From: Agromyces cerinus | Lineage (GTDB): Bacteria > Actinomycetota > Actinomycetes > Actinomycetales > Microbacteriaceae | Length of the DNA: 64,000 nucleotides | Direction of reading: 5' to 3' | Assembly: GCF_016907835.1 (NCBI RefSeq) | Contig: NZ_JAFBCT010000001.1 | Location: 992,001 to 1,056,000 of the forward strand | Shown here: piece after piece, positions 35,304 to 59,329 of the stretch | Layout: each line of letters starts with the position of its first letter | Numbering within the stretch: position 1 is the stretch's first letter | The notes under the pieces: model-generated | The model's database searches: none | Seen by the model: only the letters and a program-made list of their open reading frames with translations | What the model was told of the DNA's origin: nothing | Program-made: the position numbers and the translations under genes

Positions 35304-35346
35304 TACGCTGTGGTGCATGACGTACCAGGGAGCCGGCCATGAATGA
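35304..35346 (+). promoter_or_regulatory. Possible leaderless 9-codon upstream frame before the GntR gene
   Basis: TACGCT (35304-35309) is followed 7 bases later by ATG 35317, which opens a frame of nine codons (MTYQGAGHE) ending at TGA 35344-35346. That stop lies inside the start of the GntR gene (ATG 35339). Termination-reinitiation coupling is possible, or the ATG is coincidental. Confidence 0.3.
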
Positions 35347-36001
35347 CTCGTCGCTGCTGGCGGAGGTCGTGAGCCTGCGCGAGCAGGTGGAGCGCGCGAT
35401 GTCGTCGCGCATCGTGTCGGGCGAATACGAGCCGGGTGCCGTGCTCACCGTGCCCACGATGGCCGCCGAGTTCGGGGTCAGTGCCACGCCCGTGCGCGAG
35501 GCGATGCTGAACCTCGCCCGCCGCGGGTTCCTGTCGCCGATGCGCAATCGCGGCTTCCGCGTGACCGAGGTCTCGCTCGACGAGCTCCGGCAGTTGCGCG
35601 AGGTGCGACTGCTGCTCGAGGTGCCGCCGATGCGCCAGCTCGCCGGCACAATGTCGGAGCAGGATGCCGAGAGGCTTCGCCAGCTCGCCGCAGAGATCGT
35701 GCGCGCCGGCGACGAGGGCCGGTTCCAGGACTACCTCGAGGCCGACACGACCTTCCACCTGACGCTGCTCGGGTTGACCGGCAACCAGTTCCTCGTCTCG
35801 CTGGTGGGTGAGCTGCGTCAGCAGACGCGGTTGACCGGGCTCGTCGAGCTCGCGGAGCAGGGCGCCTTGACCGAATCGGCGCTCGAGCACGCCGAGCTCG
35901 TGCAGCTCCTGCTCGACGGCGAGGGCGATGCGGCGACCGCGTTGATGCGTCGCCACATCGGGCATGTGGGCGGCATCTGGAGCGGCGAGCACGAGGACTG
36001 A
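35339..36001 (+). CDS. GntR-family regulator, FCD subfamily; likely hydroxyproline regulon repressor
   Basis: A 220-residue regulator. The N-terminal winged helix includes GEYEPGAVLTVPTMAAEFGV then SATPVREAMLNLARRGFLS (residues 28-66). The C-terminal FCD domain keeps its metal-binding residues in EADTTFHLTLL, HAEL and RRHIGH, so it should sense a small organic acid or amino acid. It is 181 bases upstream of the liv operon, and near-identical palindromes occur at that promoter and at two further promoters in the locus, so it most likely controls all three. The ligand is inferred to be hydroxyproline or a pathway intermediate; this is not shown by the sequence. Confidence 0.9.
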   Translation: MNDSSLLAEVVSLREQVERAMSSRIVSGEYEPGAVLTVPTMAAEFGVSATPVREAMLNLARRGFLSPMRNRGFRVTEVSLDELRQLREVRLLLEVPPMRQLAGTMSEQDAERLRQLAAEIVRAGDEGRFQDYLEADTTFHLTLLGLTGNQFLVSLVGELRQQTRLTGLVELAEQGALTESALEHAELVQLLLDGEGDAATALMRRHIGHVGGIWSGEHED

Positions 36002-36101
36002 CGCCGCCGCTCGTCCGTCGTCTGCTGGGTCATCCGTCGTGGTGATCGGCGACCCTTCGCGGCCGTGATGCAGTGCTGATGCACCGCTCGCCGTTGCCGG
36101 C

Positions 36102-36141
36102 TTGCGCTGCGCGCCGCTGGCAGTAATATGTCACATATCGC
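36102..36141 (+). promoter_or_regulatory. Promoter with GntR operator, site 1 (liv operon)
   Basis: TTGCGC (36102-36107), 16-base spacer, TAATAT (36124-36129). The -10 is part of GTAATATGTCACATATCGC (36123-36141), whose core ATATGT-C-ACATAT is a perfect palindrome. A bound repressor would cover the -10. The liv start codon is at 36183. Confidence 0.75.
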
Positions 36142-36182
36142 CGCCCGGCGATGAGGCACTGTCGTACTCGAAGGAGAGTCAC

Positions 36183-37364
36183 ATGCAGTTCGGAACTCGG
36201 CGCCGCAAGCGCCTCCTCCACGTCGCCGCCGCAGCCGGCGTGCTCGCGCTGACCGCGGGATGCTCGAGCGGTCTCGCCGGCGGAGGGTCGGAGTCTGCCG
36301 CCGACGGACCCATCAAGATCGGCATGCTCGCGCCGTTCTCGGGCAGCGAGTCCGCGTTCGGCGAGTACATGCAGAACGGCGCGCAGCTCGCGGTGAACGA
36401 GATCAACGCCGACGGCGGCGTGCTCGGTCGCGACCTCGAGCTGCTCGTCGAAGACGATGCGTGCGACGCGACGACCGCGGTCTCGGGCGCCAACAAGCTC
36501 GTCACCGACGGCATCGTCGCCTCGGTCGGCGGCTACTGCTCGGGCGCCACGCTCCCGACGCTGCCGATCTTCGACGAGGCCGGCATCCCGATGGTGATCC
36601 CGGCGGCGAACTCGAACGAACTCGTCGACCAGAGCCTGCCCGGCGTCTTCCTCATCAACGGCACCGGTGACCAGCAGGCCCAAGCGGCCGTGACGTACGC
36701 GAAGCAGATCGGCGCGACGAACGTCGCGGTCGTCGACGACGCCACGAGCTACTCGGCCGACCTCGCCGGCGCATTCACCGAGCAGGCCACCGCCGCCGGG
36801 CTCGACGTCGTCGTGAGCGAGACCATCACCCCCGGTGAGAACGACTACTCCGCCGTCGCGACGACGCTCGCGACCGAGAAGCCGGCGCTTGTCTACTGGA
36901 CCGGCTACTACCAGGAGGGCGGACTCATCGCCCGTCAGTCGCAGGATGCCGGATACGACGGCGTGTTCCTCGTCGCCGACGGCTCGGTCGACGCCAAGTT
37001 CGCCGAGATCGCGGGCGAGGGCTACACCGAGAACGTCGTGGGCACCTTCACGCAGACGCCCGACATGATCGACGGCGCCGACCAGTGGATCGCCGACTAC
37101 GAGGAGCTCGCCGGCGACCCGCCCGGACCCTACTCGACCCAGGCGTACGACGCCGTGCGCGTGATGGCGCAGGCCATCGAAGACGCCGGCGACACCGAGT
37201 TCGACAACGTGGTGGCCGGTCTCGAGGGCCTGAAGGACTTCGACACCTTCGCAGGGCCCCTCACGTTCACCGACACCCACACCCTGTCGGGCGGCGGATT
37301 CGTGATCGTCGCCATCGACCCCGCGACCGGCGCGTTCGTCCTCGAGGACGACCTGCAGGGTTGA
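36183..37364 (+). CDS. Branched-chain amino acid ABC transporter substrate-binding lipoprotein (LivK type)
   Basis: A 393-residue periplasmic-binding-type lipoprotein anchored outside the membrane. The signal peptide has RRRKRLL, a hydrophobic core and lipobox LTAGC with Cys27. The mature part starts IKIGMLAPFSGSESAFGEYM and continues with VNEINADGGVLGRDLELLVEDD, the type I LivJ/LivK fold. Context (all Liv components, then hydroxyproline-degrading enzymes) argues that it binds hydroxyproline or proline rather than leucine; that is inference. ATG 36183 has AAGGAGAG upstream. Confidence 0.88.
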   Translation: MQFGTRRRKRLLHVAAAAGVLALTAGCSSGLAGGGSESAADGPIKIGMLAPFSGSESAFGEYMQNGAQLAVNEINADGGVLGRDLELLVEDDACDATTAVSGANKLVTDGIVASVGGYCSGATLPTLPIFDEAGIPMVIPAANSNELVDQSLPGVFLINGTGDQQAQAAVTYAKQIGATNVAVVDDATSYSADLAGAFTEQATAAGLDVVVSETITPGENDYSAVATTLATEKPALVYWTGYYQEGGLIARQSQDAGYDGVFLVADGSVDAKFAEIAGEGYTENVVGTFTQTPDMIDGADQWIADYEELAGDPPGPYSTQAYDAVRVMAQAIEDAGDTEFDNVVAGLEGLKDFDTFAGPLTFTDTHTLSGGGFVIVAIDPATGAFVLEDDLQG

Positions 37365-37419
37365 CGCAGCGGGGCGGGGCTCAGGCCCCGCCCCGACTCG
37401 TCGGAAGGATTCCTCTGCA

Positions 37420-38310
37420 ATGATGCAGCTCATCTGGAACGGTCTCATCGTCGGATCGTTCTACGCCCTCGTCGCGCTCGGCTACAGCATGGTCTACGGG
37501 ATCATCAAGCTGCTGAACTTCGCGCACGGCGACATCTACATGCTCGGCGCCTTCGTCGGGTTCTTCACGCTCTCGGCGTTCGGCATCTCGAACGAGACCT
37601 CGATCCCGCTCCTGCTCGTGGTGCTCCTGCTGTCGATGGTCACCACCGGCCTCATCGGCGTCGGCATCGAACGCATCGCCTACCGGCCGCTCCGCCGGAG
37701 CCCGCGGCTCGCGGTGCTCATCACGGCGATCGGCGTCTCGTTCACGCTCGAGTACGGTGTGCGCCAGATCTTCGGGCCGAACCCCGAGGCGTTCCCCATC
37801 CGGCTCGAGTCGAGCGGGTTCGACGTGCTCGGCATGCGCGTCACCGCCTCGCAGATCGTGCTCGTCGTCATCGCGGCCGTGCTCATGCTCGTGCTCGCCC
37901 ACATCGTGGAGCGCACACGGCAGGGGCGCGCGATGCGTGCGATCGCCCTCGACCCGACCGGCGCGCAGCTGATGGGCGTCAACGTCGACCGGGTGATCGC
38001 GATGGTGTTCTTCATCGGATCCGCGCTCGCCGGCGCCGCCGGTGTCATGGCCGGCGCCTACTACGGATCGATCGACTTCCTCATGGGCTTCATCATCGGG
38101 TTGAAGGCCTTCACCGCCGCAGTCATCGGCGGCATCGGCAACCTGTACGGCGCCATGCTCGGCGGCGTGCTGCTCGGCATGCTCGAGTCGTTCGGCTCGG
38201 CCTGGTTCGGCGGCGAATGGCGGGATGTGTTCGCCTTCGGGTTCCTCATCCTGTTCCTGACGCTGAAACCCACGGGCCTGCTCGGCGCCCGCGTCGTGGA
38301 GAGGATGTGA
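37420..38310 (+). CDS. Branched-chain amino acid ABC transporter permease LivH type
   Basis: A 296-residue inner-membrane permease with about eight hydrophobic segments. It begins LIWNGLIVGSFYALVALGYS, a hallmark of LivH, followed by MVYGIIKLLNFAHGD. The EAA-like cytoplasmic contact is around RAIALDPTGAQLMGV, and the later segment IIGLKAFTAAVIGG is also typical. It follows the binding protein by 55 bases and precedes LivM by one base. It would form the heterodimeric channel with LivM. Confidence 0.9.
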   Translation: MMQLIWNGLIVGSFYALVALGYSMVYGIIKLLNFAHGDIYMLGAFVGFFTLSAFGISNETSIPLLLVVLLLSMVTTGLIGVGIERIAYRPLRRSPRLAVLITAIGVSFTLEYGVRQIFGPNPEAFPIRLESSGFDVLGMRVTASQIVLVVIAAVLMLVLAHIVERTRQGRAMRAIALDPTGAQLMGVNVDRVIAMVFFIGSALAGAAGVMAGAYYGSIDFLMGFIIGLKAFTAAVIGGIGNLYGAMLGGVLLGMLESFGSAWFGGEWRDVFAFGFLILFLTLKPTGLLGARVVERM

Positions 38311-38311
38311 C

Positions 38312-39487
38312 ATGGTGCGCGATCTGGATCACGCCCTGAAGCACGTGTCGTTGCGTGCCCCCGCGCCCCAGTTCGAGCGGCCTCGGCCGCCGAAGGGCGT
38401 CTTCACCTCCCAGCAGGGCTTCATGCGCGCGCTCGGCCTGCTGGCCGTCGTCCTGGTGGCGGTGCTTCCGTTCATGGATGCCTCGCGCTACACGATGTCG
38501 ATCGCCACGAGTGCGCTCATCTACGTGATGCTCTGCATGGGCCTGAACGTCGTGGTCGGCTATGCCGGCCTCCTCGACCTCGGCTACATCGCCTTCTTCG
38601 CCGTCGGCGCGTACGTCTCTGGCATCTTCACGACGGTGCTCGGCTGGCCCATGTGGGCCGCGCTCATCGCGACGATCGTGGCCTGCATCACGGCGGGCAT
38701 CATCATCGGCGCGCCGACGCTGCGCCTCCGGAGCGACTACCTGGCGATCGTGACCCTCGGGTTCGGCGAGATCATCCGCATCACCGCCAACAACCTGAAG
38801 ATAACCGGCGGCCCGTCGGGCATCCACGGCATCCCGTCCTGGAGCTTCGGGCCGTGGGGCTTCGACGACGGGTTCAACCTGCTCGGCATCGACTTCCCCG
38901 AGCGCGTGGTGTTCTACTACTTCGTCGCAGCCGTGGTGATCGTCGTCGGCGTGATCGGTGCCGGGCGGCTCGCGAAGGGCCGGCTCGGGCGGGCCTGGAA
39001 GGCCGTGCGCGACGACGAGGACGCCGCCGAGGCGATGGGCATCAACACCTACATGGCCAAGATCTCGGCGTACATCATCGGTGCCGTCTGGGCCGGCATG
39101 GCGGGTCAGCTGATGGCGACCCACCTCTCGGCGATCAGCCCGAACAGCTTCCAGTTCCTCTACTCGGCCCTCATCCTGATGGCCGTGGTGCTCGGCGGCA
39201 TGGGCTCGACGCCCGGCGTCATCATCGGCGCGCTGTTCGTGTCGCTCGCACCCGAGCTGCTGCGCGACTTCGCCGAGTGGCGCTACCTCATCTTCGGCGT
39301 GCTGCTCGTCGTCGTCATGCTGTTCCGTCCGTCGGGGCTCTGGCCCGCCACCGCCGTGCTGCCGTGGCTGCGGCGCACCCGTCCGACGCCGCCGGCGTTC
39401 ACCGAGGCGACGGCCGTGCCGGCGAGCGTCATGGAGTCGGTCGACGGCACGCCGACGACCGATGCGCACGAAGGAGATCGCGCATGA
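38312..39487 (+). CDS. Branched-chain amino acid ABC transporter permease LivM type
   Basis: A 391-residue permease. After about 45 polar residues come roughly ten membrane segments, including VMLCMGLNVVVGYAGLLDLG, the LivM signature, and TLRLRSDYLAIVTLGFGEII. The coupling loop is RAWKAVRDDEDAAEAMGIN. The C-terminal 45 residues are soluble. It begins one base after LivH and its TGA overlaps the LivG ATG, so all subunits are made together. Confidence 0.9.
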   Translation: MVRDLDHALKHVSLRAPAPQFERPRPPKGVFTSQQGFMRALGLLAVVLVAVLPFMDASRYTMSIATSALIYVMLCMGLNVVVGYAGLLDLGYIAFFAVGAYVSGIFTTVLGWPMWAALIATIVACITAGIIIGAPTLRLRSDYLAIVTLGFGEIIRITANNLKITGGPSGIHGIPSWSFGPWGFDDGFNLLGIDFPERVVFYYFVAAVVIVVGVIGAGRLAKGRLGRAWKAVRDDEDAAEAMGINTYMAKISAYIIGAVWAGMAGQLMATHLSAISPNSFQFLYSALILMAVVLGGMGSTPGVIIGALFVSLAPELLRDFAEWRYLIFGVLLVVVMLFRPSGLWPATAVLPWLRRTRPTPPAFTEATAVPASVMESVDGTPTTDAHEGDRA

Positions 39488-40322
39488 GCGCCCTGCTCGA
39501 GGTCAGCGACCTCAGACTGCAGTTTGGCGGGGTGACCGCTGTCGACGGCCTCAGCTTCGAGGTGCGCGAGGGCGAGATCCTCGCCGTCATCGGCCCGAAC
39601 GGCGCCGGCAAAACGAGCGCGTTCAACTGCATCTCGGGCTTCTACCTCCCGACAGCGGGTTCGGTGGTCTTCGACGGCAAGGCGATCGTGCGGTCGGTTC
39701 CGGCCATCTGGCGCCGGCTCGGGCTCGTGAACCTCCTGCAGAGCTTCGGCTTCTACCGGGTGCTCCCGTCGCGGGTCACGAAGTGGGGGATGGCGCGCAC
39801 CTTCCAGAACCTCCGGTTGTTCCGAGAGCTCTCGGTGCTCGAGAACGTCACGACCGCGATGCACGCGAACCTCCGCGAGGGCTTCTGGGCGACCCTGCTG
39901 CACACGCCCGGCTACCGCCGGGCCGAGGCGGCGTGCGTCCGCGAGGCGCGGGGCTGGCTCGACTTCGTCGGATTCGAGGACGACGAGCAGCTCTACGTCA
40001 CGCAGCTGCCGTACGGCGAGCAGCGCCGGGTCGAGATCGCACGTGCGCTCGCCACGAGTCCGAAGCTCCTGCTGCTCGACGAACCCGCCGCGGGCCTGAA
40101 CTTCAACGAGAAGCAGGCGCTCATGCGGCTCATCCGCAGGATCAGGGGGCTCGGCGTCGCCGTCGTGCTCATCGAACACGACATGGGGCTCGTCATGGAA
40201 CTCGCGGAGCGAATCGTGGTGCTGAACTACGGCAAGGAGATCGCCGACGGCGCCCCGGAGGATGTGAAGCGGAACCCCGCCGTGATCGAGGCCTACCTCG
40301 GCGTCGACGAGAGCGAGGACGC

Positions 40323-40326
<4 letters not shown>
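39484..40326 (+). CDS. Branched-chain amino acid ABC transporter ATPase LivG type
   Basis: A 280-residue ATP-binding subunit. Walker A GPNGAGKT is near residue 39, Walker B LLLLDEPAAGLN near 200, and the H-loop is in LIEHDMGLVM. The signature segment reads LPYGEQRRVEIARAL instead of the classical LSGGQ. Compared with typical LivG, about 25 extra residues (around WRRLGLVNLLQSFGFYRVLP) are inserted between the Walker A region and GMARTFQNLRLF; related amino acid ATPases have variable loops there. The ATG overlaps the LivM stop. Confidence 0.9.
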
Positions 40327-41039
<713 letters not shown>

Positions 41040-41060
41040 CTGGCGACGAGGAGGTGCATC

Positions 41061-42218
41061 GTGCGCGTCGCGGTGATCGGTTCGGGCGTCGTGGGTGCCG
41101 CATGTGCGCTCGCGCTCATCGAGGGCGGCGCGGAGGTGGTCGTGATCGACCGGGTCGGCGTGGCCGGCGAGACATCCAGTCGCTGCGAGGGCAACCTGCT
41201 CGTCAGCGACAAGGCGCCGGGCGCAGAGGCCGACCTCGCGGTCGCCTCGAACGCGATGTGGCGGGTGCTCGCCGAGCGACTCGACGCCGACCGGCCGTCG
41301 AGCCAGCCGGCGACCGAGTTCGAGGCGAAGGGCGGCATCGTCGTCGCGTTCGGCGAGGGTGAGGCGGCGCTCGAGCGGTTCGCCGCCGCGCAGCGCGCCA
41401 CCGGCATCCGCGCCGAGGCGATGGATGTCGCGGCGCTCGCCGCGGCCGAGCCGTTCCTGTCTCCCGAGGTCGTGCACGCCGTGCACTATCCCGACGACGC
41501 CCAGATCCAGCCGTCGACGGCGACGCAGGCCCTGCTCGACACGGCGGTGCGAGGCGGGGCCCGACTCGTGATCGGCGAGGTGACCGGCCCGCTCGGCCGA
41601 GCGGGTCGCCTCACCGGCGTGGCGACGACGGCCGGGCCGATCGAGGCCGACGTCGTCGTGAACTGCGCGGGCCCGTGGGCCGGCGAGGTCGCGAGGCGGC
41701 TCGGCGCCCGCCTCGACATCCGGCCGCGGCGCGGCGTGATCCTCGTCACGACACCGATGCCGCAGCGCGTCTTCCACAAGGTCTACGACAGCGACTACGT
41801 CGGCGCGGTCGGCTCGGGCGACGCCGCCCTGCAGACCTCCACCGTCGTCGAATCCACCCCTGGTGGCACCGTCCTGATCGGCTCGAGCCGCGAGCGGGTC
41901 GGCTTCGACGACCGGCCCGGTGTCGCGCCGGCGGCGGCGATCGCCGCGAAGGCGGTGCGCCTGTTCCCCTTCCTCGAGCAGACGCTGCTGCTGCGCAGCT
42001 ACTTCGGGTTCCGCCCGTACGCGCCCGACCACCTGCCCGTGATCGGCGCCGACCCCGACGTCGCCGGGCTCGTGCACGCGACCGGCCACGAGGGCGCGGG
42101 CATCGGCCTCGCGCCCGCGACCGCCGAACTCGTCGCGCACGCCGTGCTCGGCGCACCGACCGCCCTCGACCCCACCCCGTTCCTCCCGGGCCGGGCCAGC
42201 CTGCAGGAGACCGCATGA
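41061..42218 (+). CDS. D-hydroxyproline dehydrogenase, FAD-containing beta-type subunit (DAO family)
   Basis: A 385-residue DAO-family flavoprotein. The FAD motif VIGSGVVGAACALALIEGG is at the N-terminus, NCAGPWAGEVARRL is in the middle, and the C-terminus has HATGHEGAGIGLAPATAELV. In heteromeric D-hydroxyproline dehydrogenases (HcnC-like beta subunit) this chain oxidises the C-N bond of cis-4-hydroxy-D-proline. Here it is followed with 4-base overlaps by a small [2Fe-2S] protein and an FAD/NAD-type subunit, the three-chain arrangement known from hydroxyproline and nopaline/octopine oxidases. Assignment to D-hydroxyproline rests on its neighbours. Confidence 0.85.
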   Translation: MRVAVIGSGVVGAACALALIEGGAEVVVIDRVGVAGETSSRCEGNLLVSDKAPGAEADLAVASNAMWRVLAERLDADRPSSQPATEFEAKGGIVVAFGEGEAALERFAAAQRATGIRAEAMDVAALAAAEPFLSPEVVHAVHYPDDAQIQPSTATQALLDTAVRGGARLVIGEVTGPLGRAGRLTGVATTAGPIEADVVVNCAGPWAGEVARRLGARLDIRPRRGVILVTTPMPQRVFHKVYDSDYVGAVGSGDAALQTSTVVESTPGGTVLIGSSRERVGFDDRPGVAPAAAIAAKAVRLFPFLEQTLLLRSYFGFRPYAPDHLPVIGADPDVAGLVHATGHEGAGIGLAPATAELVAHAVLGAPTALDPTPFLPGRASLQETA

Positions 42219-42457
42219 TCCGCATCACCGTCGACGCCGAGCCGCTCGAGGGGCGCGACGGCCAGACCATCGCCGGGGTGCTCATCGGCGCCGGCCGCAC
42301 CGCGTGGCGCACGGCGCAGACCGGCGATCGCGGCGTGTTCTGCGGCATCGGCGTCTGCCACGACTGCCTCGTGACCGTGAACGGCGTCGAAGGGGTGCGG
42401 GCGTGTCAGCGCGAGGCCGTCGACGGCGACCGTGTGGAGCGCGAGGTGCGGGCGTGA
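42215..42457 (+). CDS. Small [2Fe-2S] subunit of the D-hydroxyproline dehydrogenase
   Basis: An 80-residue ferredoxin-like protein. It has the plant-type cluster arrangement CGIGVCHDC followed 12 residues later by another cysteine (C-x4-C-x2-C-x12-C), after a beta-rich N-terminus containing TVDAEPLEG. Such HcnA-like chains pass electrons between the flavin subunits of D-hydroxyproline or amino acid oxidases. ATG 42215 overlaps the preceding stop, and its own stop overlaps the next GTG, so the three subunits are translated in step. Confidence 0.88.
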   Translation: MIRITVDAEPLEGRDGQTIAGVLIGAGRTAWRTAQTGDRGVFCGIGVCHDCLVTVNGVEGVRACQREAVDGDRVEREVRA

Positions 42458-43941: not shown

Positions 43942-43959
43942 TAATATGTCACATACTAC
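43919..43959 (+). promoter_or_regulatory. Promoter with GntR operator, site 2 (catabolic operon)
   Basis: TTGCCG (43919-43924), 17-base spacer, TAATAT (43942-43947). The operator GTAATATGTCACATACTAC (43941-43959) pairs at 8 of 9 positions around the central C. It starts inside the end of the upstream coding region and lies 38 bases before the deaminase ATG. Confidence 0.75.
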
Positions 43960-43996
43960 CGATCCGCGAACAACGGACCAGAGAACGGAAGATCAG

Positions 43997-45912: not shown

Positions 45913-45950
45913 CCCCCCAGACCGACCCCCAGCACAGAGCGGATCGACCC

Positions 45951-47444: not shown

Positions 47445-47457
47445 CGAGACGGGTACG

Positions 47458-47491
47458 CGAATGGCCCGGGCGCACACGCCCGGGCCATTCG
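47458..47491. terminator. Hairpin between convergent operons
   Basis: A perfect 15-base stem (47458-47472 with 47477-47491; arm CGAATGGCCCGGGCG) closes a 4-base loop CACA. It separates the ends of the aldehyde dehydrogenase and amidohydrolase genes, and would stop transcription from both sides. There is no T-run, which is usual for GC-rich actinobacteria. Confidence 0.8.
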
Positions 47492-47519
47492 TCGTCCCGG
47501 CCGGCCGGGGCGTCCTTGC

Positions 47520-48710: not shown

Positions 48711-48762
48711 CTTCGTTCTCCTTCTCGACGTTGTGCGGCTGACCCTCGTGGTTCTGCGGCCG

Positions 48763-50693: not shown

Positions 50694-50740
50694 ATCGTAC
50701 GGGTAATGCGTAATATGTCACATATCGCCGACGGCTCGAA
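50687..50740. promoter_or_regulatory. Divergent promoters over GntR operator, site 3
   Basis: Operator GTAATATGTCACATATCGC (50710-50728) is identical to site 1 over 19 bases. Plus strand: TGGACA (50687-50692), 18-base spacer, TAATAT (50711-50716), driving the peptide-binding protein. Minus strand: TTCGAG (50740-50735), 17-base spacer, CATATT (50717-50712), driving the cyclodeaminase-family gene. One bound dimer would block both. Confidence 0.7.
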
Positions 50741-50747
50741 GCTTCGA
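50736..50747. repeat. 12-base palindrome in the peptide-operon leader
   Basis: TCGAAGCTTCGA, perfect, 8 bases downstream of the GntR operator. The leader between the inferred start of transcription and ATG 50870 is about 145 bases; apart from this palindrome nothing structured was recognised in it. Confidence 0.4.
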
Positions 50748-50869
50748 TCCGACGAGCTGCCATCCGGATACGGCCGCCACGAGCGCCGGAACCCCGAGCA
50801 GCGCTCGCTCGAGCACGGTGACCCGCTTGTCGTCCGACTTGCGGACAGCGAATGACTCAAAGGTGAATC

Positions 50870-52633
50870 ATGGCTCGAACCACTCTGCGCGCGGCCGCAG
50901 TGCTCGCCGTTTCGACGGCGCTCATGCTGACCGCGTGCACGACCACGCCCGGCGCCGACTCGGGCGACGGCGAACCGCAGACCGGCGGCACCCTCAAGGT
51001 GCTCGCGAACGGCGACGTCGACCACCTCGACCCGCAGCTCGTCGCGTACGTGCCGACCTACAGCGTGATGCGCTCGGTGTCGCGCTCGCTGCTGAGCTAT
51101 GCGGCGAGCGACGACGCCGCCGAGCGCATCGTGCTCCAGCCCGACCTCGTCGAGGAGGTGCCGACCCCGAGCACCGACGGACTCACCTACACCGTGACCC
51201 TCCGCGACGGCGTCACCTGGGGCGCACCCGACGGCGCCCGGCCCATCGTCGCGAGCGACGTCGCCCGCGGCATCGAGCGTCTCTGCAACCCGCACATCTC
51301 GGGCGCCCTCGCCGGCTACTTCCAGGGCCTCATCGCCGGCATGGACGAGTTCTGCACCGGCTTCGCCGCCGTCGCCCCCGAGGTCGGCCCGATCAAGGAC
51401 TACATCGAGGGCAACGAGATCGCGGGCATCCGGACACCCGACGACCGCACGATCGAGTTCACCCTCGTCGAGCCCGCGAGCGACTTCCCGTTCATGCTCT
51501 CGCTCGACGCGGCCGACCCGGCACCCATCGAGGCGCTCGACGCGCTGCCCGACTCGCCCGAGTACCGGCGCGGCTTCGTGTCATCCGGTCCCTACCAGGT
51601 GGCCGAGTACACCCCCGACGCGAAGCTCGTGCTCGAGCGCAACCCCGCATGGGACCCCGAGAGCGACCCGCTCCGCAAGGCCTACGTCGACGGCATCGAG
51701 ATGACGATGGGCGTCGAGGGCGACGCCGCGATGCAGCAGCTGCAGGCCGGATCGGCCGACCTGCTCTTCGACCTCTCCCCGAGCCCCGCGAACATCCAGC
51801 AGCTCAAGGCCGCGAACGACGAGAAGTTCTCCACCATGGAGAACGGCGGCGTCGACCAGTTCATGTGGATGAACACGGCGTCGACGAACAACGGCGGCGC
51901 GCTCACCAAGCTCGAGGTGCGCCAGGCGCTGCAGTACGCGGTCGACAAGTCGGCCGTCGTGCAGACCATGGGCGGCGCCGACCTCGCCGGCGTCACGAAC
52001 GGCATCTTCGGCCCCGGCATCCTCGGCTACCAGGAGTCCGACGAGTACGCGACCGAAGGCGGCAAGGGCGACCCCGAGAAGGCGAAGGAGCTCCTCGCCG
52101 CGGCGGGCTACCCCGACGGCCTCACCCTGAAGATGCCGTACCGCAACGTCGGCACGCAGCCCGACATCGCCCAGACCGTGCAGGCGAGCCTCGAGCGCGC
52201 CGGCATCACCGTCGAGCTGACGCCCGTGCCGCCGACCGACTACTACGCGAACTTCATGACGAACCCCGACAACGCGAGCTCGGGCGCCTGGGACATCGCG
52301 CTCGTCGGCTGGTCGCCCGACTGGCAGGGCGGTGCCGCGCGCAGCGTGTTCCAGCCGCAGTTCCGTTTCGACGGCACGCCGCAGACCTACAACTACGTGG
52401 ACTTCAACAGCGACGCCGCCAACCAGCTCGCCGCCGAGGCCCTCGCCGCGGCGACGCCCGACGAGGCGGCCGACCTCTGGCACCAGGTCGACGAGGCCGT
52501 CATGGCCGACGCGCCGATCGTCAGCATCGCGTACCGACTGAAGCCGAACTACCACTCGGCCCGCGTCGGCGGGTTCGAGCCGTACGCCCAGAGCCAGAAC
52601 GGCGACTGGACGAACGTCTGGCTCACGAAGTAG
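50870..52633 (+). CDS. Peptide ABC transporter substrate-binding lipoprotein (family 5)
   Basis: A 587-residue oligopeptide/dipeptide-binding lipoprotein. Signal peptide with lipobox LMLTAC and Cys23; the mature part starts TGGTLKVLANGDVDHLDPQL, the family-5 opening, and has GVTWGAPDGARPIVASDVARG and, near the C-terminus, DAPIVSIAYRLKPNYHSARV. It should capture peptides outside the cell for the permeases encoded downstream. With two proline-specific peptidases in the same operon, proline- or hydroxyproline-rich peptides are the likely cargo. AAGGTG precedes the ATG. Confidence 0.9.
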   Translation: MARTTLRAAAVLAVSTALMLTACTTTPGADSGDGEPQTGGTLKVLANGDVDHLDPQLVAYVPTYSVMRSVSRSLLSYAASDDAAERIVLQPDLVEEVPTPSTDGLTYTVTLRDGVTWGAPDGARPIVASDVARGIERLCNPHISGALAGYFQGLIAGMDEFCTGFAAVAPEVGPIKDYIEGNEIAGIRTPDDRTIEFTLVEPASDFPFMLSLDAADPAPIEALDALPDSPEYRRGFVSSGPYQVAEYTPDAKLVLERNPAWDPESDPLRKAYVDGIEMTMGVEGDAAMQQLQAGSADLLFDLSPSPANIQQLKAANDEKFSTMENGGVDQFMWMNTASTNNGGALTKLEVRQALQYAVDKSAVVQTMGGADLAGVTNGIFGPGILGYQESDEYATEGGKGDPEKAKELLAAAGYPDGLTLKMPYRNVGTQPDIAQTVQASLERAGITVELTPVPPTDYYANFMTNPDNASSGAWDIALVGWSPDWQGGAARSVFQPQFRFDGTPQTYNYVDFNSDAANQLAAEALAAATPDEAADLWHQVDEAVMADAPIVSIAYRLKPNYHSARVGGFEPYAQSQNGDWTNVWLTK

Positions 52634-52709
52634 CCGTCCGCACCATTCGCAAATCACGTACTCGGCGGCCGGTCCCGGCCGGCCGCCGGGTCAGATCGAG
52701 GGACCCCCA

Positions 52710-54575
52710 ATGACGATCCTCCTCGACGTGCGCGACCTCGCCGTCGACATCCCCACCGAGGACGGCACCGTGCATGCGGTGCAACACGTCTCGTTCACCG
52801 TCAACGAGGGCGAGTTCTTCGGGGTCGTCGGCGAGTCCGGCTCCGGCAAGTCCGTGATGGTGCAGTCGATCATGGGCCTCGTGCCCGGCGCGCGCACCAG
52901 CGGTTCCGTGCTGTTCCGCGACCGCGACCTGCTCTCGCTCGCCCCCGAGCAGCTGCGCTCGGTGCGCGGGCGGGAGATCAGCATGATCTTCCAGGACCCG
53001 CTCTCGAGCCTGCACCCCCAGTACACGGTGGGCTGGCAGATCGTCGAGCAGATCCAGGCGCACGAGAAGGTCAGTGCGAAAGCGGCGAAGGCGCGCGCGA
53101 TCGACCTGCTGGACCGGGTGCGCATTCCGGATGCCGCGGCGCGCTTCGACGCCTACCCGCACCAGTTCTCGGGGGGCATGCGACAGCGTGTGATGATCGC
53201 GATGGGCCTCTCGCTCGGCCCGGCGCTCATCATCGCCGACGAGCCGACCACCGCGCTCGACTCCACCGTGCAGGCGCAGATCCTCGACCTGCTCGGCGAG
53301 ATGCGCAGCGAGTTCGGCACGACCGTGCTCATGATCAGCCACGACCTCGGCGTGCTCTCGCGCGTCGCCGACCGGGTCATGGTCATGTACGGCGGTCGTC
53401 GCATGGAACTCGGGGCCGCCGATGCGGTGCTCTGCGGCCCCGCCCACCCCTACACCGCGGGGCTCCTGCGGTCATCGTCGTTCAACCGGGAGCCGGGCAC
53501 GCCGCTCGTGCCCATCGGCGGGCGACCGCCGAGCCTGCTCGCACCGCCCGAGGGCTGCGCGTTCCGCGACCGCTGCCCGGATGCGATGTCGATCTGCGGC
53601 TCGAAGCCGCCGGTGCGTCACTACGACGACGGCACCGAGGTGGCGTGCTGGCTCGAGACGACGCCGGTCGAGCCGGAGCCGCCGGTGCTCCCGCCGCCGA
53701 GCCTGCTCGCGAACCCCGACGACCCCATCGTGAAGGTCGACGGACTGCGCCTGACCTTTCCGCAGCGCCGCGGCGAGCCGCGCGTCGTGCTCGACGACAT
53801 CTCGCTCGAGGTGCGGCGGGGCGAGACGCTCGGCCTCGTCGGCGAGAGCGGCTGCGGCAAGACCACCCTCGCGCGTGCGATCGCCGGGCTCGTCGCGCCG
53901 ACGGCCGGCACCGTCGAGTTCGACGGCGCCCCGACGACGAACCTCGACCGCGCCCAGTGGCGCGACCTCCGGCGTCGCGTGCAGCTCGTCTTCCAGGACC
54001 CGTTCGGCTCGCTGAACCCCCGTCGCCGCGTCGGTTCGATCATCGGCGACCCGTTCCGCATCCACGGCCTCGCGAAGGGCGCCGAGCGACAGGCGAAGGT
54101 GCAGGAGCTCATGGAGCTCGTCGGGCTGAACCCCGAGCACTACAACCGCTTCCCGTCGCAGTTCTCGGGCGGGCAGCGGCAGCGCATCGGCATCGCCCGG
54201 GCGCTCGCGCTGAACCCCGAGCTCGTGATCCTCGACGAGCCGGTCTCGGCGCTCGACGTGTCGATCCAGGCTCAGGTGCTGAACCTGCTCGACGAGCTGC
54301 AGCGCCGGCTCGGCCTCACCTACCTGTTCATCTCGCACGACCTCGCCGTCGTGCGCCACGTCTGCGATCGCATCGCCGTGATGGAGGGCGGGCGCATCGT
54401 CGAGCTCGGCACCGCCGACGAGGTCTGGAACGACCCGCAGCAGCCGTTCACCCGGCGCCTGCTCGCCGCCGCGGCGCCCGAGATCCCGCGGGAGCCGCGC
54501 GATCGACTGCTGCTGCCCATGGCGGGCTCCGCCGGCGCATCCGTCGACCGCATCGTCATGGAGGTCGCCTCGTGA
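52710..54575 (+). CDS. Fused dipeptide/oligopeptide ABC transporter ATPase (DppD-DppF type)
   Basis: A 621-residue double ATPase. The first half has Walker A GESGSGKS at residues 41-48, signature FSGGMRQRVMIAMGL and the cysteine-rich C-terminal motif CAFRDRCPDAM that binds an iron-sulphur cluster in DppD-like proteins. The second half has Walker A GESGCGKT at 378-385, signature FSGGQRQRIGIARAL and Walker B VILDEPVSALDVS. So both peptide-transporter ATPases are one chain, a fusion seen in actinobacteria. It is 76 bases after the binding protein and overlaps the next gene. Confidence 0.93.
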   Translation: MTILLDVRDLAVDIPTEDGTVHAVQHVSFTVNEGEFFGVVGESGSGKSVMVQSIMGLVPGARTSGSVLFRDRDLLSLAPEQLRSVRGREISMIFQDPLSSLHPQYTVGWQIVEQIQAHEKVSAKAAKARAIDLLDRVRIPDAAARFDAYPHQFSGGMRQRVMIAMGLSLGPALIIADEPTTALDSTVQAQILDLLGEMRSEFGTTVLMISHDLGVLSRVADRVMVMYGGRRMELGAADAVLCGPAHPYTAGLLRSSSFNREPGTPLVPIGGRPPSLLAPPEGCAFRDRCPDAMSICGSKPPVRHYDDGTEVACWLETTPVEPEPPVLPPPSLLANPDDPIVKVDGLRLTFPQRRGEPRVVLDDISLEVRRGETLGLVGESGCGKTTLARAIAGLVAPTAGTVEFDGAPTTNLDRAQWRDLRRRVQLVFQDPFGSLNPRRRVGSIIGDPFRIHGLAKGAERQAKVQELMELVGLNPEHYNRFPSQFSGGQRQRIGIARALALNPELVILDEPVSALDVSIQAQVLNLLDELQRRLGLTYLFISHDLAVVRHVCDRIAVMEGGRIVELGTADEVWNDPQQPFTRRLLAAAAPEIPREPRDRLLLPMAGSAGASVDRIVMEVAS

Positions 54576-55519
54576 GCCTCATGCCCAAGACCCCCGCTGC
54601 GGCGGCGCGCGCCTCGACCGAAGTGCAGGCGCGGGGCTCCGGCCGGCTCACGCTCAGCCGGCTCCTCCGCGACCCCGCGAGCATCGCCTCGATGATCGCC
54701 ATCCTCCTGATCATCGCCTTCGCGCTCTGCGCCCCGCTCATCGCGGCGTGGACCGGTCACGGCCCGACCGAGCAGTTCCGCGAGACCGGCCTCACCCCGG
54801 AGGGCATCCCCGTGGGCCCGAACGCCGAGTTCCTGTTCGGCACCGACCAGCTCGGCCGCGACGTGCTCGTGCGCCTCGCCTACGGCGCGCAGGTCTCGCT
54901 CCTCGTCGGCGTGCTCGCTTCGATCGTGGCGTCGGTGATCGGCATCGCGATCGGCACGATCGCCGGGTTCTCGGGCGGGGTCGTCGACACGGTGCTCAGC
55001 CGCACGATGGACCTCGTGATGAGCGTGCCGTTCCTGCTCTGCGCGATCGCGCTCGTTTCGGTGCTCGGCCCGAGCCTCAGCCTGTCGATCGCCGTGATCG
55101 TGTTCTTCAGCTGGACCGGCCTCGCCCGAGTCATCCGCGGTCAGGTGCTGGCGCTCCGTCACCGCGAGTTCGTCGAGGCGGCCCGTTCGCTCGGCGCCTC
55201 GCGCACGTCGATCATGTTCCGCGACATCCTGCCCAACCTGGTCGTGCCGATCATCGTCTACACGACCCTCATGATCCCGGCGGCGATCGTGTTCGAGGCG
55301 ACGCTCTCGTTCCTCGGACTCGGCATCGTGCCGCCGACCCCCAGCTGGGGCAACATGCTGGCGGATGCCGCGAACGGGTCGCTCTACCTCGTGGCGTGGT
55401 GGATGGTCGTCGTGCCCGGCGGCGCCCTGCTCGCCCTGACCCTCGCGTTCAACCTGCTCGGCGACGGCCTTCGCGACGCACTCGATCCCGCCGCCGTCTC
55501 GAAGGGCAAGCGCGCATGA
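54572..55519 (+). CDS. Peptide ABC transporter permease, DppC type
   Basis: A 315-residue inner-membrane permease with an N-terminal cytoplasmic extension, a first hydrophobic segment (SMIAILLIIAFALCAPLIAAW), a soluble periplasmic part with FGTDQLGRDVLVRLAYGA, and a further block of five membrane segments. The EAA motif is in EFVEAARSLGASRTSIMFRD. GTG 54572 overlaps the ATPase stop (GTGA). The C-type subunit precedes the B-type here, the reverse of the usual dppBCDF order. Confidence 0.9.
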   Translation: MSLMPKTPAAAARASTEVQARGSGRLTLSRLLRDPASIASMIAILLIIAFALCAPLIAAWTGHGPTEQFRETGLTPEGIPVGPNAEFLFGTDQLGRDVLVRLAYGAQVSLLVGVLASIVASVIGIAIGTIAGFSGGVVDTVLSRTMDLVMSVPFLLCAIALVSVLGPSLSLSIAVIVFFSWTGLARVIRGQVLALRHREFVEAARSLGASRTSIMFRDILPNLVVPIIVYTTLMIPAAIVFEATLSFLGLGIVPPTPSWGNMLADAANGSLYLVAWWMVVVPGGALLALTLAFNLLGDGLRDALDPAAVSKGKRA

Positions 55520-56481
55520 CCCGGTTCATCCTCTCCCGCATCGCGTTCGGCGTGCTCGTGCTGTTCCTCCTCAGCGTCTTCGTGTTCATGCTCTTCTACG
55601 TCTCGCCGTCGGACCCGGCCCGCATCATCGCGGGCGACAAGGCGACCGAGGAGCTCATGGCGCAGATCCGCACGAACCTGGGGCTCGACCGCCCGATCAC
55701 CGAGCAGTACGTGACCTTCATCGGCAACCTGCTGCACGGCGACCTCGGCTACTCGTACCGCTCGAGCATGCCCGTCTCCGAACTCGTGGTCTCCCGCATC
55801 CCGGTGACGATGTCGCTCGTCTTCGGCGGCATGGTGTTCTGGCTCGCGATCGGCATCCCCATCGGCATCGTCTCGGCGAAGCATCCGGGCTCGGCGCGCG
55901 ACCGCCTCGGGCAGGGGTTCGCGATCGTCGGCATCAGCTTCCCGACCTTCGTGCTCGGCATGCTCGCGCTGTACCTGCTCTACTTCGTGCCGACGAAGCT
56001 CGGGTTCATGCTCTTCCCGCCGAGCGGCTACGTGCCGTTCACGGAGAGCCCCCTGCAGTGGGCCTGGCACCTGCTGCTGCCCTGGCTGACGCTCGCGCTC
56101 GTCGTGGCGGCCGTGTACGCGCGGCTCACGCGCGGGCAGATGCTCGAGGTGCTCGGCCAGGACTACATCCGCACCGCGCGGGCCAAGGGCGTGGACGAGC
56201 GTCGGGTCACGTACGTGCACGCGTTCCGCAGCGCCATGCCGCCGCTCGTGACCCAGCTCGGCATCGACATCGGGCTCATGCTCGGCGGCGTCATCGTGAT
56301 CGAGCAGGTCTTCGGCCTGCTCGGCGTCGGCAGCCTCGCGGTGACCGCGGTCGCCATGCAGGATAGACCCGTGGTGATCGCGATCGTACTGCTCGGCGGC
56401 GTCTTCGTCGTCGTCTCCAACCTCGTCGTCGACACGACGTACGCGCTGCTCGACTCTCGGGTGCGGACGGCCACCCGATGA
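55516..56481 (+). CDS. Peptide ABC transporter permease, DppB type
   Basis: A 321-residue permease with six hydrophobic segments. It begins FILSRIAFGVLVLFLLSVFV, carries LGLDRPITEQYVTFIGNLLH and the EAA loop DYIRTARAKGVDERRVTYVH, all typical of DppB/OppB. ATG 55516 overlaps the DppC stop, and its own stop overlaps the ATG of the aminopeptidase. It forms the membrane pore with the DppC-type subunit. Confidence 0.9.
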   Translation: MTRFILSRIAFGVLVLFLLSVFVFMLFYVSPSDPARIIAGDKATEELMAQIRTNLGLDRPITEQYVTFIGNLLHGDLGYSYRSSMPVSELVVSRIPVTMSLVFGGMVFWLAIGIPIGIVSAKHPGSARDRLGQGFAIVGISFPTFVLGMLALYLLYFVPTKLGFMLFPPSGYVPFTESPLQWAWHLLLPWLTLALVVAAVYARLTRGQMLEVLGQDYIRTARAKGVDERRVTYVHAFRSAMPPLVTQLGIDIGLMLGGVIVIEQVFGLLGVGSLAVTAVAMQDRPVVIAIVLLGGVFVVVSNLVVDTTYALLDSRVRTATR

Positions 56482-57779
56482 GCGCCGACTGGTATCCCAT
56501 CGGGAAGGATGTCGCCGCCCGCGAGCTGTGGCTCGACGTGCCGCTCGACTGGGCCGAACCCGACGGGCCGACCATCCGCGTGTTCGCGCGCGAACTCGTC
56601 GACGCAGCCCGCCGCGATGAGGACCTGCCGGTGCTCGTCTACCTGCAGGGCGGGCCCGGCGGCAAGTCGCCGCGACCGCTCGGCCGCGACGGGTTCCTCG
56701 ACGAGGCGCTCGCCCGGTTCCGGGTGGTGCTGCCCGACCAGCGGGGCACCGGCCGCTCGACCCCGCTCGAGGGGCGGCAGCTCGAGGGGCTCAGCGCCGA
56801 CGAATCGGCGAAGATCCTCGCCCTGCACCGTGCCGACTCCATCGTGCGCGACCTCGAGGCGCTCCGGCGTGCCCACTACGGCGGCCGGCCGTGGTGGACG
56901 CTCGGGCAGAGCTACGGCGGCTTCCTGACGCTGCACTACCTCTCGGTCGCGCCCGAGGCGATCGTCGCCTCGGCGATCACCGGGGGACTGCCGAGCCTCG
57001 ATCCGTCGGCCGACGACGTCTACGCCCGTACCTTCCCGCGCGTGCGGGCGAAGAACCGCCGGTTCGCCGAGCGGCTGCCGCATCTGACCGAGCGCATCGC
57101 GCGGGTCGCCGACCTGCTCGACGCCGGCGACGTGCGCCTGCCCGACGGCGACCGGCTCACCGTGCGCCGCTTGCAGACGCTCGGCTTCGACTTCGGCATG
57201 GCCCCGGGCTTCGACCGGGTGCACTGGGTGTTCGACGAGGCGTTCGCCGACGCCGGCGAGACCGTCATCGGCGAGACGTTCCTGTCGACCGTCGGCGCCC
57301 TCACCGCGTTCGATCGCAATCCGCTCTTCATCGCCCTGCAGGAGAGCATCTACGGGCCCGGCCCCACCGCCTGGGCGGCCGAACGGGCCCGGGCCGGCAA
57401 TCCCGACTTCGACCCCGACGCCCGGCCGCTGCTCTTCACCGGCGAGATGGTCTTCCCATGGATGTTCGAGGAGGTGCGGGCACTCCGCGGCTTCCGCGCG
57501 GGCGTCGAGCGGCTCGCCGAGACCGATCGCCCGATCGAGCTGTACGACCGGGCGCGACTCGCGGCGAACGCCGTGCCCGTCGAGGCGGTCGTCTACCTCG
57601 ACGACATGTACGTCGACGCCGCGTTCTCGCTCGACACCGTCGAGCGGGTCGGCGGCCTCGAAGCCTGGACCACCAACGAGTTCGAGCACGACGGACTGCA
57701 CACCGGGAAGGTCGCCGGACGACTGTTCGACGCCCTCGACCGGCGCGTCGCCGGCTCGGCCCACGCTCCGCGCGCGTGA
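56478..57779 (+). CDS. Alpha/beta-hydrolase, probable prolyl iminopeptidase
   Basis: A 433-residue alpha/beta hydrolase of family S33. The oxyanion region is VYLQGGPGGKSPRPL, DQRGTGRSTPLEG follows, and the nucleophile Ser145 is in GQSYGG; the catalytic Asp/His region lies in the last 60 residues (YLDDMYVD, FEHDGLHTG). It would remove N-terminal proline or hydroxyproline from imported peptides. It has no signal peptide, so it acts in the cytoplasm. The ATGA overlap with the permease gene ties it to transport. The lid region is large, as in the longer PIP subgroup. Confidence 0.85.
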   Translation: MSADWYPIGKDVAARELWLDVPLDWAEPDGPTIRVFARELVDAARRDEDLPVLVYLQGGPGGKSPRPLGRDGFLDEALARFRVVLPDQRGTGRSTPLEGRQLEGLSADESAKILALHRADSIVRDLEALRRAHYGGRPWWTLGQSYGGFLTLHYLSVAPEAIVASAITGGLPSLDPSADDVYARTFPRVRAKNRRFAERLPHLTERIARVADLLDAGDVRLPDGDRLTVRRLQTLGFDFGMAPGFDRVHWVFDEAFADAGETVIGETFLSTVGALTAFDRNPLFIALQESIYGPGPTAWAAERARAGNPDFDPDARPLLFTGEMVFPWMFEEVRALRGFRAGVERLAETDRPIELYDRARLAANAVPVEAVVYLDDMYVDAAFSLDTVERVGGLEAWTTNEFEHDGLHTGKVAGRLFDALDRRVAGSAHAPRA

Positions 57780-57802
57780 CCGCGCACCTGAAAGGACCCG
57801 GA

Positions 57803-59329
57803 ATGACCGAACAGACCCACGCCCACACCCACGCGCATCAGGGCGAGCGCGGCGGGGGAGCGGCATCCTCCATGCCGGCTCCGGCCGAGCGGGACCCGCG
57901 GATGCCGCGACTCACGCAGTCGCCGGGGTTCAACGAGTCCATGCGGAGCGGCTGGGGCACGCCCGTGCGCACGCCGGTGATCCCGTCGGGTGCCGCGCTC
58001 GCCGCGCACCACCACCGCGCCCGGCTCGCCGAGGCGCTGCCCGGCCGCACCATCGCCGTCTCGGCCGGTCGGGCACCCGTGCGCGCCAATGACACGAGCT
58101 TCGAGTTCCGCGCCGACAGCGACTTCCTCTGGCTCCTCGGCTGCGGCATCGAGGACGCGGTGCTCGTGATCGAGTCGGTGCCCGGCGGCCACGACGCCAC
58201 GCTCTACCTGCCCGCGCCCTTCCGGCCCGGCGACGACGGCTTCCACGCCGACCCGCTCCGGGGCGAGCTCTGGGTCGGGCCGATGCCCGGCCTCGCCGAG
58301 TACGCCGAGGCGCTCGACGTGCGCACGCGCCGCATCGAGGAGCTCGCGCTGAGCCGCGACACCCTCGTCGCCGGTGCGCCGACGCCGGTCGGGCCGGCGG
58401 CCGCCGCGCTCGCCGCGAACCCCCGCTCGGCCGACCTCAAGCGCGTGCTCGCGGAGCTCCGCATGATCAAGGACGAGTGGGAGCTCGCTGAGCTCGCGGC
58501 CGCGGTCGCCTCGACCGAGCAAGGGTTCGCCGCGATGGCGCGCGAGCTCTCCTCGGCCATCGAGTGGGGCGGCGAGCGCTGGCTGCAGGGCACCTTCGAC
58601 CGCTACGCGCGCACGGTCGGCAACGGCCCGGGCTACGCGTCGATCGTCGGCTCCGGCGCCCACGCGCCGATCCTGCACTGGGTGCGCGCCGACGGCGAGA
58701 TCAGTCCTGCAGAGCTGCTGCTGCTCGACGTCGGCGTCGAGCGACGGTCGGGCTACACGGCCGACGTCACGCGCACCATCCCGGCCGGCGGCACGTTCAC
58801 CTCGGCGCAGCGCGCCGTGCACGACCTCGTCGAGGCCTCGCACCGTGCCGGGCTGGCGGCCGTCGGGCCGGGCCGCCAGTGGTCCGACTTCCACGTCGCG
58901 AGCATGGAGGTCATCGCTCGGGGCCTGCACGACTGGGGGATGCTGCCGGTCTCGGTCGACGAGGCGCTCGCCCCCGACGGGCAGCAGCACCGCCGCTACC
59001 TCGTGTGCGGCGTGGGGCACCACCTCGGCATCGACGTGCACGACTGCGCGGGCTCGAGCTACGCCGCCTACCAGGGGGCCGTGATGCAGCCGGGCATGGT
59101 GCTCACGGTCGAACCCGGGCTCTACTTCCACGCGTTCGACGAGACGGTGCCGCCCGAGCTCCGCGGCCTCGGCGTGCGCATCGAGGACGACCTCGTGGTG
59201 ACGTCGACGGGCCACGACGTGCTCTCCAGCGGACTCCCGATCGACGCTGCCGGCCTCGAGGCCTGGCTGGCGGCGGCGCGTTCGGGCGAACGGAACGCAT
59301 CTGCCCCCGAGGTCGTCTCCGGTCGCTGA
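57803..59329 (+). CDS. Xaa-Pro aminopeptidase (M24B)
   Basis: A 508-residue creatinase-fold metallopeptidase. The N-terminal AMP-N domain contains SFEFRADSDFLWLLGC; the catalytic domain shows the metal ligands in LLLDVGVERRSGYTADVTRT, GVGHHLGIDVHD, LTVEPGLYFH and GLGVRIEDDLVV. The first 55 residues are an extension rich in histidine (HAHTHAHQ) that could bind metal. It removes the residue preceding proline, complementing the prolyl iminopeptidase, and together they would degrade proline-rich peptides. AAAGGA precedes ATG 57803. A hairpin follows. Confidence 0.92.
   Translation: MTEQTHAHTHAHQGERGGGAASSMPAPAERDPRMPRLTQSPGFNESMRSGWGTPVRTPVIPSGAALAAHHHRARLAEALPGRTIAVSAGRAPVRANDTSFEFRADSDFLWLLGCGIEDAVLVIESVPGGHDATLYLPAPFRPGDDGFHADPLRGELWVGPMPGLAEYAEALDVRTRRIEELALSRDTLVAGAPTPVGPAAAALAANPRSADLKRVLAELRMIKDEWELAELAAAVASTEQGFAAMARELSSAIEWGGERWLQGTFDRYARTVGNGPGYASIVGSGAHAPILHWVRADGEISPAELLLLDVGVERRSGYTADVTRTIPAGGTFTSAQRAVHDLVEASHRAGLAAVGPGRQWSDFHVASMEVIARGLHDWGMLPVSVDEALAPDGQQHRRYLVCGVGHHLGIDVHDCAGSSYAAYQGAVMQPGMVLTVEPGLYFHAFDETVPPELRGLGVRIEDDLVVTSTGHDVLSSGLPIDAAGLEAWLAAARSGERNASAPEVVSGR

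Follow-up and report, generated by a model that had tools for sequence, protein, structure and literature searches.

A probable HypR-type GntR regulator and its predicted collagen and hydroxyproline regulon in Agromyces cerinus

How much of the way from collagen to 2-oxoglutarate can be placed under a single repressor? The question is raised by a stretch of 64,000 nucleotides from Agromyces cerinus (assembly GCF_016907835.1, contig NZ_JAFBCT010000001.1, positions 992,001 to 1,056,000; this whole stretch is called the window), in which a gntR gene lies beside genes for amino acid import (liv), hydroxyproline catabolism (hyp) and peptide import (opp). A preliminary description of the window had proposed that one FCD-type GntR protein links peptide import, proline-specific peptidases, amino acid import and full catabolism. 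The core of that proposal is well supported here, both by genome comparison and by resemblance to a known regulator, HypR; the description had missed that this type of regulator is published, as well as a collagenase gene that is a likely target and a possible weak site at gntR itself. We give a probability of roughly 85% that gntR encodes an actinobacterial repressor of the HypR type, in control of the wider collagen/hydroxyproline programme. The small published repressor circuit would then become a near-complete predicted collagen-to-2-oxoglutarate programme under one protein, from collagenase secretion through the uptake of peptides and their cleavage by proline-specific peptidases to the catabolism of hydroxyproline, in a soil bacterium.

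The elements on which this reading is built are the regulator, three operators and one promoter:

35339..36001, plus strand: gntR, FCD-type GntR regulator, HypR-like, 220 amino acids (Pfam GntR and FCD above cut-off; conserved HypR-cited residues)
36123..36143: operator 1, palindrome 36126-36138, overlapping the -10 TAATAT at 36124-36129 (GTAATATGTCACATA match, rarity in the genome, relatives)
43941..43959: operator 2, palindrome 43944-43956 with one mismatch, overlapping the -10 TAATAT at 43942-43947 (GTAATATGTCACATA match, rarity in the genome)
50710..50730: operator 3, palindrome 50713-50725, overlapping a -10 on the plus strand (opp promoter) and a -35 on the minus strand (GTAATATGTCACATA match)
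50694..50721, minus strand: promoter GTGACA-16-TACGAT of the minus-strand operon, its -35 inside operator 3 (promoter scan)

The 15-base word GTAATATGTCACATA occurs exactly at 36123, 43941 and 50710, where three near-identical words had been described, and a search with up to three mismatches gives six matches in the window, which are the same three palindromic places read on both strands (mean 0.02 over 100 shuffles); the remark that no further copy had been noticed in the window is confirmed. Two copies were said to be identical over 19 bases, and this identity holds over 21 bases, for operators 1 and 3. Reading by eye, the promoters are TTGCGC-16-TAATAT (36102-36129), TTGCCG-17-TAATAT (43919-43947) and, on the plus strand at operator 3, TGGACA-18-TAATAT (50687-50716), in agreement with the -10 placement and hexamer spacings described before; a consensus promoter scanner lists the last of them alone. 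Operator 1 fronts livKHMGF together with three D-hydroxyproline dehydrogenase genes, so that the liv transporter named in the description is correct and incomplete. Operator 2 fronts the dapA-type, epimerase and aldehyde dehydrogenase genes, and operator 3 lies between oppA-oppDF-oppC-oppB-pip-pepP on the plus strand and the ornithine cyclodeaminase-family (OCD), racemase-family and amidohydrolase genes on the minus strand.

The genome-wide site search that had been proposed beforehand limits the core ATATGTCACATA to these promoters, with exactly three copies in 3,977,730 bases (3.98 Mb; control 0). The 13-bp palindrome at up to three mismatches is found in 33 places (control 6): the three operators at 0, 0 and 1 mismatch, none at two and 30 at three. 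Two of these loose places overlap at a collagenase gene; five more (L073-L077), inspected by eye without a family search, have no obviously linked gene, and the 23 others were left out. One could suppose that the three sites are merely similar -10 elements, the result of recent duplication or promoter constraint, which no regulator reads, since every one of them holds a TAATAT placed as a -10. We regard this as highly improbable: the conserved word is palindromic and reaches beyond the -10, distant Actinobacteria have such sites close to the same genes in one orientation or the other, and on the minus strand it is a -35-like element, and not the -10, that lies under operator 3. Chance likeness between -10 elements was rejected on site rarity and conservation.

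Does the operator follow the regulator from genome to genome? In a comparison set of 60 genomes, the own genome (G000) included, 22 have a GntR relative at E <= 1e-20, again counting the own, though the G050 match, at 34% identity, may be no orthologue; the nearest relative by GntR is G021 (96%). The degenerate pattern GTRRTATGTSACRYA has 28 distinct places (32 rows, four places being found on both strands) in 17 of the 60 genomes, the own three included, and its reversed control has none. All but one of the 28 are at hyp or opp genes. The exception (L102, G041:C11:543282) is in a genome lacking gntR, its 3-kb surroundings hold no match to any window protein, and it is probably a chance match. 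Of the 22 genomes with gntR, 16 have a site, against 1 of the 38 that lack it (Fisher p 7e-9, optimistic because related genomes are treated as independent), which supports the link between GntR and operators inferred earlier. The pattern was widened after some of its sites were seen, and for this reason the result with the exact TATGTSACATA is cleaner: 6 of 36 genomes have it, all six with gntR. Even in G015, where a racemase-family/reductase pair is on a different contig from gntR, the pair has a site.

The kind of regulator is already published. In the excerpted account of PMC6608401, the hydroxyproline genes of Streptomyces coelicolor are repressed by HypR (SCO6294), an FCD-type GntR protein; its footprint in its own promoter contains TACAATGTCAC and spans a -10, and the genes under its repression are SCO6289-6293 and one for an M9 collagenase. 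Other targets given there are SCO5281 (2-oxoglutarate dehydrogenase) and SCO6295, and not all bound promoters are responsive, three being unchanged in the mutant and two inactive. The window GntR is of similar length and has 13 of the 14 HypR-cited residues, the remaining Leu209 being Ile207, when positions are mapped by a constant offset of 2 rather than by alignment with SCO6294. The DNA-contact residues Ser50, Thr52, Arg55, Arg71 and Asn72 correspond to S48, T50, R53, R69 and N70, which are invariant among 11 aligned proteins, and the metal-site histidines, their helpers and the CitO-like ligand residues are matched by H140, H184, H206, E94, D136, E183, R90 and F139. All 11 residues named for DNA contact and for the metal site, which is putative in the window GntR, are matched. 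ATGTCAC is common to the window operators and the published site, which lies over a -10 at one promoter in that account, and TACAATGTCAC itself stands exactly, just upstream of gntR, in 25 of 80 orthologue loci, all of Streptomyces or Kitasatospora (S. coelicolor HypR is outside this set).

The three sites might still be read by some other DNA-binding protein that this genome encodes, with gntR a mere neighbour; the genome gives 34 first-look candidates for the GntR query, and binding of GntR to the operator is itself a prediction. This is a slim chance in our estimate, considering that the sites track gntR across genomes, that the published footprint core recurs at gntR in the orthologue loci, and that the contact residues do not vary.

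As far as the excerpts of PMC6608401 go, the regulons are alike in a three-subunit D-hydroxyproline dehydrogenase (with a domain set similar to SCO6289-6291), a DapA-type deaminase, an epimerase and, probably in Agromyces, an M9 collagenase gene that is no part of the hyp operon. They differ in that the Agromyces operators also front an aldehyde dehydrogenase, liv-type and opp-type importers, an amidohydrolase, two peptidases and a further pair of racemase-family and reductase genes, and in that the Agromyces operator is a clear palindrome, with no strong site at its own gntR. The predicted Agromyces regulon is thus wider than the published one. In the consulted part of PMC5343134, the proteobacterial HypR (Sinorhizobium meliloti type) is likewise a GntR repressor of hydroxyproline genes, sometimes with an ornithine cyclodeaminase-family gene in the regulon and autoregulated in 32 of 46 genomes, whereas peptide importer and peptidases do not figure in that part; the two are set side by side here by description. 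Neighbouring genes for a racemase-family enzyme and an OCD-family pyrroline-2-carboxylate reductase are also known from the proline racemase superfamily neighbourhoods, where transporters and peptidases lie near one such cluster in Bacilli, but the passages of PMC4113996 used here describe no shared operator or regulator. A literature search outside subscription papers gave no account of the wider Agromyces regulon or of a second operator form.

The genes that this regulon would hold in the window, besides gntR, are as follows:

36183..41039, plus strand: livKHMGF, branched-chain-type amino acid ATP-binding cassette (ABC) transporter (open reading frames, partial Pfam)
41061..43941, plus strand: D-hydroxyproline dehydrogenase, three subunits (Pfam DAO, Fer2_4, Pyr_redox_2, Fer2_BFD)
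43997..44911, plus strand: dapA-type pyrroline-4-hydroxy-2-carboxylate deaminase, by context (Pfam DHDPS; below NCBIfam cut-offs)
44911..45912, plus strand: 4-hydroxyproline epimerase, by context, Cys-Cys type (Pfam Pro_racemase 418 bits; motifs MCGHG and DRSPCGTG; below NCBIfam cut-offs)
45954..47444, plus strand: aldehyde dehydrogenase, by context 2-oxoglutarate semialdehyde dehydrogenase, start approximate (Pfam Aldedh; below the cut-off of the NCBIfam models listed)
47520..48710, minus strand: amidohydrolase, Xaa-Pro dipeptidase-like (Amidohydro_1; best NCBIfam Xaa-Pro dipeptidase, 194 bits, cut-off 500)
48763..49749, minus strand: proline-racemase-family enzyme, trans-3-hydroxyproline dehydratase-like, Cys-Cys motifs (family matches, active-site motifs)
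49746..50687, minus strand: OCD/mu-crystallin family, by context pyrroline-2-carboxylate reductase (family matches; likely leaderless start at ATG 50687)
50870..52633, plus strand: oppA, peptide-binding protein (SBP_bac_5)
52710..54575, plus strand: oppDF, fused double ATPase (ABC ATPases with oligo_HPY)
54580..56481, plus strand: permeases oppC (start near 54580, approximate) and oppB (from about 55519) (open reading frames and matches in relatives, no family scan)
56478..57779, plus strand: pip, proline iminopeptidase-type alpha/beta hydrolase (Abhydrolase_1; iminopeptidase name from context)
57803..59329, plus strand: pepP, Xaa-Pro aminopeptidase of aminopeptidase P type (Peptidase_M24 and AMP_N)

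The liv genes start at 36183 (livK), 37420 (livH), 38312 (livM), 39484 (livG) and 40326 (livF); livK is named by Peripla_BP_6 and livG by ABC_tran and BCA_ABC_TP_C, while livH, livM and livF are named by reading their sequences without a family scan. The dehydrogenase subunits start at 41061 (DAO), 42215 (Fer2_4) and 42454 (Pyr_redox/Fer2_BFD), and the oppC query used on relatives was partly out of frame. When ten window proteins were scanned against NCBIfam, no model reached its cut-off among the matches listed, and the exact substrates consequently rest on context and established pathway knowledge.

The positions, rarity and conservation of the sites, their co-occurrence with gntR and the conserved residues are observed; in its binding, repression, dimer, effector and enzyme specificities the scheme is a predicted one. 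A GntR dimer would block RNA polymerase by occupying palindromes that cover the -10 (at operators 1 and 2 and on the opp side of operator 3), and on the minus-strand side of operator 3 it would cover the -35, so that operator 3 alone could close both directions. When hydroxyproline enters the cell, a metabolite made from it would free the promoters; by analogy with S. coelicolor this is probably not hydroxyproline itself, as the excerpts of PMC6608401 report that L-hydroxyproline induces HypR targets in vivo without releasing HypR in vitro, and that L- and D-hydroxyproline and L-proline have no effect on its binding in vitro. Actinorhodin is reported to prevent DNA binding by HypR, which served as a control in that work (2026 paper, PMC13170358, seen in part). 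Derepression would bring on amino acid and peptide import, the proline-specific peptidases and the trans-4-hydroxyproline route to 2-oxoglutarate together, with a second branch, probably for trans-3-hydroxyproline, induced alongside. A second operator form at the promoter of an unlinked M9 gene would probably put collagen cleavage under the same GntR.

Can the collagenase indeed be counted in? The genome has one Peptidase_M9 match, in a gene 2.2 Mb from the locus and outside the window, whose protein is above cut-off for both Peptidase_M9 (394.8 bits) and Peptidase_M9_N (227.3 bits). It starts at an ATG at about C1:3269726, and GTGTGATATATGACAC stands at 3269591-3269606, about 120 bp upstream. 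This longer form of the operator is perfect at the collagenase promoters of G000, G018 and G021, has one mismatch in G013 and G029 and three in G058, a member of another family in which the M9 domain is about 12 kb from gntR. The pattern RTGTNATRYATNACAY, written from such sites, is informative mainly in that nothing else is found by it: its seven distinct places in the 60 genomes (control 0) are three collagenase promoters (G000, G018, G021), two gntR promoters (G014, G034) and, in each of G019 and G033, the stretch that follows dhA. It is unlikely, in our judgement, that control by the regulator ends with the three linked operons and that the collagenase site is chance or an unrelated palindrome. 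Such a reading could point to the three mismatches between the collagenase site and the compact operator, to the partly circular specificity of a pattern written after its sites were seen, to the G058 site, three mismatches from either form, and to a second conserved stretch nearer the start codon, by which conservation in the five upstream regions is not special to the site. Against it stand the confinement of all seven places to collagenase (three), gntR (two) and dapA-operon (two) promoters, the near-perfect sites of G013 and G029, and repression of an M9 collagenase gene by S. coelicolor HypR (excerpts of PMC6608401); moreover, M9 occurs in 6 of the 60 genomes, all six with gntR (p 0.0015, genomes treated as independent). 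We conclude that the regulon probably includes the unlinked M9 gene. In the alignment of the five Agromyces upstream regions the site lies in a conserved block; that it is the best-conserved block was ruled out, the leader stretch being kept too. Four Streptomyces loci (L177, L141, L174, L185) have, beside the hyp operon, an M9-type protein that has diverged to about 25% identity with the Agromyces collagenase, and the sole one scanned (L177) is above the Pfam M9 cut-off.

The regulator may also have a weak site of its own:

35308..35323: possible weak autoregulatory operator of the second, long form, CTGTGGTGCATGACGT, adjoining a -10-like TACGCT at 35304-35309

The same 16 bases, three mismatches from the long form, occur in G021 and G018, and a block aligned with this site is found in the gntR promoters of 12 Agromyces genomes, the own included, with the long form perfect in G014 and G034 and poor in G004. 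In the closer relatives the form is compact at livK promoters and long at those of gntR, and OCD and dapA have either, by species; collagenase promoters have the long form. The dapA starts of G013, G029, G011 and G004 have the long form within 130 bp at one or two mismatches, G019 and G033 have it perfect after dhA, 1.4 kb upstream of the dapA start, and several other relatives have a site before dhB in place of dapA. In G033 the gap between the long form and dapA holds an open reading frame for an MFS-type transporter (L053:17733-19091), named by eye. It is conceivable, though we would sooner doubt it, that one regulator reads two geometries of the same half-sites, RTGT...ACAY, 1 or 8 bases apart, with the geometry tied to the promoter in the closer Agromyces relatives. 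If so, the thresholds for scavenging, for catabolism and for collagenase secretion could differ under a single repressor. The long form may consist of a single wide site or of a pair of compact sites that overlap, 7 bp apart.

Several results weigh against so wide a regulon under a HypR-type repressor. In the 260 bp before starts inferred from protein matches, either form at up to two mismatches is found at 7 of 18 dapA and 9 of 11 OCD starts, the compact form at up to two at 6 of 9 livK starts, and the long form at up to three at 9 of 21 gntR starts (9 of 11 in closer relatives); for comparison, random 280-base stretches of the same regions at up to three mismatches gave the compact form in 4 of 400 and the long in 8 of 400, real sites included. 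There is no site at dapA of G010, at OCD of G034 or at any tested promoter of G001, and a second, more distant locus of G004 has oppA, pip, pepP and a second gntR copy without one. The site at the own gntR promoter has three mismatches, and oppA is not enriched for ATGTCAC in the wider loci (2 of 27, controls 0-3), which gives no support to a general actinobacterial rule of peptide import under the operator. Finally, enzyme names are given by context, and the regulation is predicted from sequence.

In the same wider loci ATGTCAC precedes gntR in 37 of 80 (controls 0-1), dapA in 24 of 62 (0-4) and dhB in 29 of 60 (0-16), with matches that miss the gene start or have less than 250 bases upstream dropped. 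For pip the enrichment is suggestive (4 of 15 loci, controls 0-1); pepP has none (0 of 13). The control words are imperfect, as TCACATG overlaps the extended motif (16 of 60 at dhB; 5 of 12 at livK against 4 real), ACATCTG matches 12 of 58 at hypE and GTCATCA 8 of 20 at oppDF. ATGTCAC before livM, in 7 of 11, is probably coding sequence. The combination of peptide uptake with both peptidases had been said to seem unusual; this is not supported, as Streptomyces, Kribbella and further Agromyces loci also have peptidase genes directly behind such sites. The site lies 50-57 bp before the pepP match start in G008 and G026, and ATGTCAC is close upstream of pip in L157, L162 and L170 (Streptomyces) and L159 (Kribbella), and upstream of oppA in L142 and L160.

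On the minus strand, the prolidase-like amidohydrolase (47520-48710) is present in G000 and G021 and has no match in G018, whose gene order is otherwise equal. The best NCBIfam model for the 48763-49749 protein is trans-3-hydroxyproline dehydratase (275 bits, cut-off 540). This protein and 39 of 42 matches, some genomes being counted twice, have Cys-Cys active-site motifs, the other three having one unreadable motif. Since the published dehydratases with residues given in the available parts of PMC4364671 and PMC4113996 are Cys-Thr or Ser-Thr, it may be either a Cys-Cys dehydratase or an epimerase. Its neighbour, described before as a cyclodeaminase, is better read from this context as a pyrroline-2-carboxylate reductase of the trans-3-hydroxyproline branch. 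The promoter scan of this stretch found two promoters (0.5 expected), and in relatives TACGAT or a similar hexamer stands 6-7 bases before the OCD ATG, which suggests that the transcript is leaderless from ATG 50687; the GTG at 50693, an alternative start, probably lies too far upstream.

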